From Methanocaldococcus infernus ME (lineage in GTDB: Archaea; AGJL01; Methanococci; Methanococcales; Methanocaldococcaceae), in NCBI RefSeq assembly GCF_000092305.1, contig NC_014122.1:1-64000 (forward strand): a stretch of DNA of 64,000 nt. The letters run 5' to 3'. A program made the translations under genes and the position numbers. The notes under the pieces were generated by a model that saw only the letters and a program-made list of their open reading frames with translations, searched no databases and had not been told where the DNA came from. This document shows positions 40,051 to 43,727 of the stretch, piece after piece (within the stretch, counting starts at the first letter, position 1; the number at the start of each line of letters is the position of its first letter).

Positions 40051-40815
40051 TTATTTTTTAGTCATATTTAAGAAGTAATCTAAGAACTCTAAGCCTCCTC
40101 CATAGTTTACAGCTTTTGGATGAATTGACAAACAGAATAGATATTTTGAAGATTCATAATCTTTCTTAGCTAATTTTTTAGCAGATTCAAGATAATCTTT
40201 TGGAAGGTACCAAGTATACTCTCTATTGGTTATCAGAATTTTTTTAATTGAATCATTTTCTTTTTTTAGTATGTAATGGTCTGTAATAATTGTAATATCC
40301 CTACTTAGAAATACTTCTTTTGCATCTTCTGATATTTTATACCTTGGTGGAATAAAATATTTTATTTTTTTAGTATTAAATCCACACTCTTTTATTATTT
40401 TAAATGAATTATTTAGCTTTTCTTCTGCAACAGACTTATTACAGTTAAATTCTTCTCCTATATGATTATATCCATGATATTCTATATGATATCCCTTACT
40501 TTCTAAATGATGTAAGTACTCAACAAATTTAGGGTAGTTTTTAAGATTATACTTATTTGCATGGTTAACAATGATAAATAAGTAAGTTCTATCTTGATAG
40601 TTATATTTATCTATTATTTTCTCAATATCTTTTAATTCATTAAAATATTTTGGGCTAACATCATGAATAAAAATTATTGGCTCTTTTATAGTGTTATTTG
40701 AGTTTAGTGCATAACCTAAAGGATCAACTTCATTATTATTTCCAAAAGTAACTGTAAATAATATTGATAGAGCTAATACAAGTCCTAAAAATATAAAATA
40801 ATGTGGTTTTTTCAT
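40051..40815 (-). CDS. Secreted polysaccharide-deacetylase-like protein (DUF2334 type)
   Basis: 254 residues. An N-terminal hydrophobic segment (YFIFLGLVLALSILFTVTFG) exports or anchors it. NodB-like fold elements: IIFIHDVSPKY, EYHGYNHIG with the metal-type His pair, IPPRYKISED, and the terminal SIHPKAV. It probably removes acyl groups from a surface glycan. Convergent with cdc48; the 14-base gap is T-rich on both strands and may terminate both genes. Confidence 0.7.
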   Translation of the reverse strand: MKKPHYFIFLGLVLALSILFTVTFGNNNEVDPLGYALNSNNTIKEPIIFIHDVSPKYFNELKDIEKIIDKYNYQDRTYLFIIVNHANKYNLKNYPKFVEYLHHLESKGYHIEYHGYNHIGEEFNCNKSVAEEKLNNSFKIIKECGFNTKKIKYFIPPRYKISEDAKEVFLSRDITIITDHYILKKENDSIKKILITNREYTWYLPKDYLESAKKLAKKDYESSKYLFCLSIHPKAVNYGGGLEFLDYFLNMTKK

Positions 40816-41285: not shown

Positions 41286-41381
41286 GTAAAATAACGCCCC
41301 TAAGGGGATGGAAACAAGCTAAAAAATATAATTAAAGAAGCTACTAAAAGCGTAAAATAACGCCCCTAAGGGGATGGAAAC
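41286..41381 (+). CRISPR. Minimal CRISPR array: two 30-base repeats, one 36-base spacer
   Basis: Repeats at 41286-41315 and 41352-41381 are identical over 30 bases. They contain a CCCCTAAGGGG hairpin and end in GGATGGAAAC, close to the GAAA(C/T) end typical of archaeal repeats. The spacer is 41316-41351. Direction is set by the leader on the left. No cas gene is in the window. Confidence 0.9.
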
Positions 41382-41509
41382 TAATTTTATTTTTACTATT
41401 ATAAATCAATAGACTCAAATAAAAAAATTAATTAATTCAATAATAACTTTTATAAACATCACCACAAAATAAAATTTAATAAATTTAACAAAGAGTTAAG
41501 GGGTTTTGT

Positions 41510-42286
41510 ATGGAGAATGGTGAATATTTTATCAATCCTAACTTAGATCCAAGAAAAGATCACATACTATACAAAGATAAGGAACACATGGTTATTTATC
41601 TTGGAACTTCTGGGTTTGGAAAAGGAGATGTTGAAATTAATAGCTATTTGATAGTTAATAAAGGAAAAGGCTTCCTTGTTGATCCAGGAGGATATAAGAT
41701 ATTTCCAAGGGTTTTAGCCAACATATCAAAGTATATTAATCCAAAAAATATAGAATATATTTACATGTGCCACCAAGATCCTGATGTTTGTGGAAGTATC
41801 CCACTATGGAGAACTATAACCAATGCTAAACTTGTTACAAGTTGGCTATGGATAAGGTTCTTACCTCACTTTGGTTTTGAAGATGTAGATGCTGTTGCCT
41901 ATCCATTGGAAGATGAAGGGCATGTTTTAAAATTTGGCTCCTCCACCTTAGAGTTTATCCCAGCTCACTTTTTACACAGTCCAGGACATTTTACAATTTA
42001 TGATAGGAGGAGTAAATTTTTATTTACAGGAGATATTGGGATAGCTCTTTTAGAAAAGCCTTACTTGGTTGCTGAAGATATAAGTAAGCATATTGAGGCT
42101 ATGAAACCTATACATGAGAGGCTAATGGCTAACAATGTAGCTTTAAAAAATTGGGTTAAAAGGGTTAGAGGCTTAAGTATTGAAGCTATCCTTCCACAGC
42201 ATGGGGCCATTATACAGAAAAAAGATATAGGTAGGTTCTTCAACTTCTTAGAAAATCTGAAGTGTGGAACTGATTTAATTAGGTGA
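41510..42286 (+). CDS. ODP-type diiron oxygen/iron sensor protein (metallo-beta-lactamase fold)
   Basis: 258 residues of the flavodiiron-protein lactamase fold without a flavodoxin domain. Metal ligands: [10 protein letters not shown] near 85, [12 protein letters not shown] near 155, FTGDIG near 173 and LPQHGAII near 230. This matches the ODP family, in which a diiron site senses oxygen or Fe(II); in Treponema denticola an ODP works with chemoreceptors. Its stop overlaps the start of a methyl-accepting-type signalling protein, supporting a sensor role rather than oxygen reduction. Confidence 0.85.
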
Positions 42287-43044
42287 GGAAATTGAAAAAG
42301 AATTATATTATCATTGAAAAGGCTTCAAATGTTCTCTCAGATGCTGTTAGGTTAGAAGCTGGGAATAAAGAAACTTCAAAAATTATCAGTGAGTTGGCTG
42401 AGGAAATATCTGGTAAGTTCTTGGAGAATAACAATATAATTATTATAAATATTGGTGAACTCTCAAAGATTGTCAGAGACTTAGAGAAGTTTAGGGAAGA
42501 TTTTTTACCATTCTTCCAAAAGCTTGAAACCTTTTCTAAGGAGTTCAATAAGTTGGTTGAGAACCTAAAATATATCTCAGATATTAGCAATTCTATAGGA
42601 GAGGTTGCTAAGCATACTAACTTAGTGGCTCTAAATGCCTCTATTGAGGCTGAGAGGGCTAAGGAATATGGGAGAGGTTTTGCTGTTGTAGCTGATGAGA
42701 TAAGAAGAATGGCTGTAAAAACTATGGAGCTAACAAAGAGGATAAATAAGTTTAACTCTGAAATTCTTCAAAACTTGGAAACCTTAGCTGATGTCCTTGA
42801 AATTATTGATAAGATTAAAGAGGGAACAGAGGTTCTTAGCCAAGATATTGATAAAATTATTAATATTAGTAAAACCTTAGATGAGATCTCAAAAGAGCAG
42901 GAAATTATTGTTCATGACATTAAAGGATTAAAAGGATTGTCCTTAGCTTTAGAAGAGCTTAATAAGATGCAGTCAAAATTTAATAAAGAGCTTGGTACCC
43001 TCTTAATTGATCTAACATCACAGTTAGAAGAAAAAAAGAAATAA
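42283..43044 (+). CDS. Soluble methyl-accepting-type signalling protein
   Basis: 253 residues, almost entirely coiled coil and without a transmembrane segment. The chemoreceptor hairpin tip is clear at about 105-147: [19 protein letters not shown], then [16 protein letters not shown]. It lacks a HAMP or own sensory domain; the overlapping ODP gene probably supplies sensing. GTG at 42283 overlaps the ODP stop; a TTG at 42292 after GGTGAGG is an equally good start. No cheA, cheW or other che gene lies in the window. Confidence 0.88.
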
Positions 43045-43046
43045 TT

Positions 43047-43727
43047 TTAATCTAAATTTAAGAGATTCTTTAGAAACTCTATAACTTTATTTTTTCCTTC
43101 CTTACTTCTAACTTCATAAACTTTTAGTGGATTTATAGCCTTATATATCTCTTGCTCATCAATTCCCAAATCTTTGCTCCTTGCTTGGCACACTCTCACA
43201 GCTACATCATTTATTTTTGAATCAGTTTCATCTGCATAGTGAACTATATAGGCTTCAATAGACTGGGGCCTTGTTGGGGAAAATTCTCCATGATGTGAAG
43301 CCACTATTTTAATAACTTCTAAAGGAAACTCTCTTTTATAAAGTTCAGCTACAGCAAGGGTTAAGTGATCTAAGTTAAAGAGATCATAGTGATCAAACCC
43401 TTCCTCTGTCTTTATGTAGTTGTAAGGCTTCATAATGTCATGAAGTAGAGAGCCAGCTATAATATAGTCTCTATTAACCTTAACTCCATAAACCTCCTCA
43501 AAGACATCAGCCATTTTTAAAGCCAACTTTGTCACAGCAACAGTATGCTCTATTAAACCTCCTTCATATCTATGGTGCCAGTTAATACTTGCTGGAGCCT
43601 CTTCTAAGCTAACTCCTGTATCCTTAACCTCAGGATGAGTAGCCTTAGGATTCTTTATAAACTCTATAACCTTCTCCCTTAACTTCTCATCTTTTATCTC
43701 CTTAGCCAACTCTATCAATCTTTCCAT
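43047..43727 (-). CDS. HD-domain phosphohydrolase, possibly MptB-type cyclic phosphodiesterase
   Basis: 226 residues. HD-superfamily ligands: NWHHRYEGGLIEHT near 50, the LLHDIMKP pair near 95, VASHHGEF near 142 and YADETDSK near 165. The ASINWHHRYEGG segment resembles the M. jannaschii HD protein MptB, which opens 7,8-dihydroneopterin 2',3'-cyclic phosphate in methanopterin synthesis; I recall this only loosely. Converges with the MCP gene (2-base gap) and overlaps the end of the glycosyltransferase gene by 13 bases. Confidence 0.7.
   Translation of the reverse strand: MERLIELAKEIKDEKLREKVIEFIKNPKATHPEVKDTGVSLEEAPASINWHHRYEGGLIEHTVAVTKLALKMADVFEEVYGVKVNRDYIIAGSLLHDIMKPYNYIKTEEGFDHYDLFNLDHLTLAVAELYKREFPLEVIKIVASHHGEFSPTRPQSIEAYIVHYADETDSKINDVAVRVCQARSKDLGIDEQEIYKAINPLKVYEVRSKEGKNKVIEFLKNLLNLD

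Follow-up and report, generated by a model that had tools for sequence, protein, structure and literature searches.

An ODP-type diiron protein and a soluble chemoreceptor encoded as a pair in Methanocaldococcus infernus: a probable intracellular oxygen or iron sensor for archaeal chemotaxis

Introduction

What is the role of a diiron protein encoded beside a chemoreceptor that has no sensor of its own, in a genus not known to have chemotaxis genes? The question is raised by two overlapping genes of the hyperthermophilic methanogen Methanocaldococcus infernus ME, here called odp and mcp. They lie in the window, i.e. the whole stretch of 64,000 nucleotides that was analysed, which is bases 1-64000 of a genome of 1,328,194 bp in a single contig. 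The original prediction, made from this stretch, saw in the two products a possible stand-alone oxygen or Fe(II) signalling module with an unknown output.

Oxygen-binding diiron proteins (ODPs) have been recruited for signalling in bacteria and archaea, chemotaxis among other pathways, and operons in which they stand with chemoreceptor (MCP) genes were described in 2019 (summarised in PMC7319448). A review describes the binding of iron and oxygen by ODP as well as its interaction with the cognate receptor (PMC6978683). The Treponema receptor TDE2496, which is coupled to ODP, has neither a transmembrane nor a sensing module; it is able to modulate CheA and is likely incorporated in the membrane arrays, and deletion of the ODP changes CheA ordering (PMC7666581). 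The coupling of ODPs with MCPs is already known in bacteria and archaea, and the M. infernus pair is a further member. A literature search on M. infernus chemotaxis yielded no relevant paper, and no published biochemistry on its odp-mcp pair was found.

The odp-mcp locus

Both genes are on the forward strand. The first, odp (41510..42286, ATG start), encodes a stand-alone ODP of 258 aa with a metallo-beta-lactamase fold and no flavodoxin domain, and the second, mcp (42283..43044), a soluble chemoreceptor of 253 aa counted from a GTG start. The predicted overlap of 4 bases (GTGA) requires this GTG as the start codon; a TTG in the same frame at 42292 is an alternative. Such an overlap is ordinary by itself; what goes beyond chance is that the two genes stay together over many lineages, as described below. 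A TATA-like sequence, TTTTATAAA (41448..41456, forward strand), read 54 bp 5' of the odp start, is a putative promoter of an odp-mcp operon. At 41286-41381, about 130 bp upstream of odp, a single spacer of 36 nt is enclosed by two identical CRISPR-type repeats of 30 nt. The flanking genes, coding for a DUF2334 (polysaccharide deacetylase-like) protein at 40051-40815 and an HD-domain protein at 43047-43727, are on the opposite strand and therefore apparently unrelated to the pair.

The upstream gene encodes a sensor-type ODP

The product of odp matches the Pfam family PF19583 (ODP) with 240.3 bits (E 2e-71). Passing the cut-off of this family (27.2 bits) does not alone separate ODPs from flavodiiron proteins (FDPs), as the genome's own FDP reaches 116 bits, but the score does. 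Sequence matches in the PDB include 6qnm (E 4e-66) and 6qrq (E 1e-63), the crystallised ODPs being about 43-45% identical to the M. infernus protein. Its AF2 model (pLDDT 91.8, pTM 0.91) fits ODP structures along nearly the full length, and the best Foldseek matches are ten ODP chains (TM 0.82-0.90), with flavodiiron proteins ranking behind them.

The motif HQDPDV (residues 88-93; 41771..41788, forward strand) contains the predicted ligands H88, D90 and D92 and, in an alignment with FDPs of the same genome, places V93 at the position of an FDP histidine. Together with H156, D175 and H231 these residues make up the ODP ligand set originally predicted for this gene, and all six, through which the metal would be bound, are common to the Treponema and Thermotoga ODPs. 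The six ligand-type residues plus H153 are invariant in 89/89 aligned ODPs, although for H88 to D92 this invariance is partly by construction, one search pattern having included HQDPD. The additional conserved H153 corresponds to a proline in the FDPs of the same genome. Judged by its sequence, the 258-aa protein is a genuine ODP of the sensor type, since it has no flavodoxin part, a valine for the last histidine of the motif, the extra H153 and the invariant ligand-type residues.

The downstream gene encodes a sensorless receptor with an altered tip

The signalling domain PF00015 (MCPsignal, 93 bits) spans residues 83-206 of the 253-aa receptor, in which neither a hydrophobic (transmembrane) segment nor a HAMP match nor a ligand-binding domain was found. 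The AF2 model (pLDDT 87.2) is a single hairpin whose two helices span residues 2-125 and 127-252. By sequence, the closest PDB protein is the soluble chemoreceptor Tm14 (3g6b), and 2ch7, 3g67 and 3g6b are Foldseek structure matches of the model. Sequence and model establish the identity and fold of both proteins, and the idea of an ODP-type sensor joined to a receptor without sensor, membrane or HAMP part, as in Treponema, stands as first put forward.

The signalling tip had been called perfect, which it is not. At the hairpin tip (residues 118-131; 42634..42675, forward strand) there are two genus-specific substitutions, A124E and G127K, so that the receptor reads EAERAKE rather than EAARAGE, with most tip residues retained. 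The alanine and glycine are kept at these positions in most other ODP-linked receptors, and among those listed EAERAKE is confined to four Methanocaldococcus ODP-linked receptors; MCPs of the same genus without ODP linkage have, in those examined, the tip NASIEAARAGEAGR. The methylation-type motif [ASTG][ASTG]xx[EQ][EQ]xx[ASTG][ASTG] is absent from the receptor and occurs two or three times in each of five other receptors. The C-terminal arm measures 128 aa in this receptor versus 157 or more in those five. Because the methylation-type motifs are missing and the tip is altered, the receptor could couple to CheA weakly or in an atypical way.

Alignments also revealed that residues 210-222 of the C-terminal arm (42910..42948, forward strand) form a conserved stretch of VHDIKGL type, common to archaeal-type ODP-linked receptors and some receptors from Aquificota, L101 among them. 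This stretch is a candidate ODP-docking or signalling site. It is not a universal docking motif of ODP-linked receptors, the main bacterial receptor type being without it. A bolder proposal, which we advance as speculative and rather doubtful, is that the archaeal and vent-thermophile receptors form a subtype with variant signalling: lacking the usual methylation sites, they would respond to ODP through the VHDIKGL stretch, the charged tip in Methanocaldococcus would alter coupling to CheA, and the receptor would be non-adapting, with its set point given by the diiron protein.

Conservation of the gene pair

Nine Methanococcales genomes have a stand-alone ODP, and in each of them (9/9) a soluble MCP gene is found directly downstream on the same strand, at a distance of -4 to +15 nt and with outer neighbours that differ between genomes. 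Within the genus, MCP frames of about 253 aa are restricted to four genomes that also have ODP. On a wider scale, 65 of 87 distinct ODP loci from many phyla have a downstream MCP (226-339 aa, no transmembrane segment, same strand, within 400 nt), these loci (89 minus two duplicates) having been picked by similarity and hence being no census; at two further loci (L128, L162) the contig end falls inside an MCP-like frame. The pair is found not only in Methanococcales but also in Thermococcales, and the same gene order recurs in Aquificota, Spirochaetota, Nitrospirota and others. The abstract of Muok et al. 2019 (PNAS) reportedly counts eight phyla. The ODP-MCP pair is inherited as a unit. In the ODP tree, archaeal ODPs form one group with those of Desulfurobacteriaceae and another Aquificota sequence (support 100/100), a grouping that would fit gene transfer between thermophiles of vents.

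Other arrangements were also seen. A second, more divergent Thermococcales ODP clade (L218-L226, L230, L231; about 235-295 bits) also occurs in genomes without CheW, and those members that were fetched mostly have as their neighbour a protein of about 264 aa that matches no Pfam family, not an MCP. In two Thermococcales genomes (L215:3796-5037 and L227:5133-6362) an MCP of 409-413 aa is encoded directly upstream of ODP; its N-terminal domain is unnamed by Pfam, and the suspicion of a globin domain in the 413-aa protein was not supported. In Oceanospirillaceae (L108, L112, L121, L122 and similar loci), two tandem ODP genes are followed by one for an HD-domain protein (HD-GYP-like), which suggests a possible c-di-GMP output. 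In Campylobacterota (L110, L116, L134, L148 and similar), ODP is flanked by a response-regulator protein on one side and, at most loci, by a histidine kinase on the other, an arrangement suggestive of a two-component output.

Chemotaxis genes in M. infernus and co-occurrence with ODP

The premise that Methanocaldococcus has no known chemotaxis genes does not hold. A search of the M. infernus genome for cheA and cheW found both: cheW, cheB and cheA are consecutive at about 695.6-700.2 kb, and the genome has one CheW and one CheA, both confirmed by Pfam, the latter with five domains (Hpt, P2, H-kinase_dim, HATPase and CheW). CheR is encoded at 483 kb, adjoined by an ORF that looks CheC-like by eye, and two CheF proteins at 228 and 240 kb, in a region that also holds a CheY-like receiver and a CheC/CheX-like protein. 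With five other MCPs and archaellins, the chemotaxis and archaellum gene set is complete. CheW/CheA are present in 7/14 sampled Methanocaldococcus genomes, and M. jannaschii, without a CheW match in our control panel, is the likely source of the earlier premise. One of the chemoreceptors (genome positions 1220086-1221780; L083:1587-3281) is an unusual fusion of 564 aa, its C-terminal domain being a rhodanese (PF00581, 60.6 bits), and might report sulfur chemistry.

The distribution of ODP follows that of the chemotaxis genes. Among 36 Methanococcales genomes, a stand-alone ODP is present in 9 of the 21 with CheW/CheA versus none of the 15 without (Fisher p 0.005, shared ancestry ignored). Searching for ODP through the whole phylum added no genome to these 36. 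In Thermococcales, strong CheW matches were found in 27/30 ODP genomes, and 3/60 genomes without a strong CheW match have ODP (Fisher p 6e-14, shared ancestry again ignored). CheW-domain matches were present in 29/30 further named ODP-bearing genomes examined. As for the three Thermococcales exceptions, one without a CheW match (G134) has kept ODP with a linked receptor that has lost its first 99 residues, as one would expect were the receptor of no use in the absence of CheA. The other two (G115, G038) have ODP, an intact receptor and no CheW match; these are fragmented assemblies, so that CheA may have been missed.

Proposed mechanism and alternatives

It is very probable that odp-mcp is an intracellular O2/Fe(II) sensor pair for archaeal chemotaxis, acting on CheA and, as we infer, on the archaellum. 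By analogy with the Treponema protein, in which the reduced state can bind O2 as a diferric-peroxo adduct, ODP would bind two irons and pass its iron/oxygen state through direct contact to the co-encoded receptor. The tip of this receptor could then join the receptor array of the cell and alter the activity of its single CheA. Any signalling of the soluble receptor through CheA has to use this one kinase in common with the membrane receptors. From there, the gene set suggests CheY phosphorylation and, via CheF, an effect on the archaellum. The most likely outcome would be a swimming response, in a direction that we infer, by which this strict anaerobe avoids oxygenated water. Points against a chemotaxis sensor are the distance of about 650 kb between odp-mcp and the cheW-cheB-cheA operon, the three Thermococcales ODP genomes without a CheW match, the missing methylation-type motifs and the altered tip.

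A variant that overlaps with this reading is that the pair serves chemotaxis by sensing mainly iron, or another metal or redox state, instead of O2. In the habitat of these archaea O2 is scarce and Fe(II) plentiful, which speaks for it, as does the title of Muok et al. 2019, cited in PMC6978683, which names both Fe(II) and O2 as signals reported by the Treponema ODP. The ligand residues, however, match those of O2-binding ODPs, and the sequence offers nothing to tell an Fe(II) from an O2 signal. We regard the variant as possible, though less likely than not.

A stand-alone O2/Fe(II) module with an output other than chemotaxis, as originally envisaged, we consider very unlikely. The position of odp-mcp outside the che operon would suit it, as would a receptor tip that differs from those of the other receptors of the genome and the non-chemotaxis partners that some other ODPs adjoin. 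Against it are the complete che system with one CheA in the same genome, the absence of ODP from all 15 Methanococcales genomes without CheW/CheA and the MCP signalling domain retained in the receptor.

That ODP is an enzyme reducing oxygen or NO with electrons from F420H2, NADH or rubredoxin, its place beside a receptor being fortuitous, is hardly credible: despite a distant likeness to flavodiiron proteins it has no flavodoxin/FMN domain, no fused electron donor and a valine at the FDP ligand-position histidine, its pairing with a receptor is conserved, and two full-length FDPs are available in the genome for such a role. These two (L190 and L191; 386 and 416 aa), encoded elsewhere, have a C-terminal part of flavodoxin length and the motif HVEKDH. 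Aligned with them, the window ODP shows neither a fused flavodoxin domain nor an HxExDH motif, its chain stopping before the flavodoxin part, and we reject an oxygen reductase, the finding that would have refuted the original prediction, on the lack of a domain that both separate FDPs have. A third FDP-related protein of the genome (L192, 357 aa) fell outside the motif filter and was left out of the ODP/FDP alignment.

Reading odp-mcp as a chemotaxis sensor pair corrects the notion of a Methanocaldococcus without chemotaxis, as CheA and CheW are found in half of the sampled genus and several species bearing them carry an oxygen sensor apparently wired to chemotaxis. Hyperthermophilic methanogens are added to the organisms with an ODP-receptor pair, and the pair is kept where CheA is kept. 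The tip substitutions and the VHDIKGL stretch are concrete sites for probing how ODP and receptor communicate.

Comparison with known systems

With flavodiiron proteins (FprA/ROO), ODP shares the metallo-beta-lactamase fold and most metal ligands; these have a flavodoxin domain and HxExDH, whereas in ODP the domain is missing and the motif reads HxDxDV. The solved structures nearest to the M. infernus pair include Thermotoga maritima ODP (6qwo) and soluble Tm14 (3g67, 3g6b), the sequence match of the latter to the receptor spanning the signalling region. The pairs of Thermococcales and Desulfurobacteriaceae have the same gene order, and their ODPs are about 52-77% identical to that of M. infernus and in one tree group with Methanococcales (100/100); the alanine and glycine are retained in their receptor tips, those that are shown reading EAARAGE, in contrast to EAERAKE in Methanocaldococcus. 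As is the case in Treponema denticola (TDE2498 and TDE2496), a stand-alone protein of ODP fold (TM against solved ODPs up to 0.90) with the same ligand residues is genetically coupled to an MCP homologue without sensor or transmembrane part, in a genome with a single CheA. Unlike the T. denticola system, the M. infernus pair is archaeal, with an ODP about 43-45% identical and a receptor of a different subtype (253 aa, with the VHDIKGL stretch), and its output would be the archaellum, reached via CheF, instead of a flagellum.
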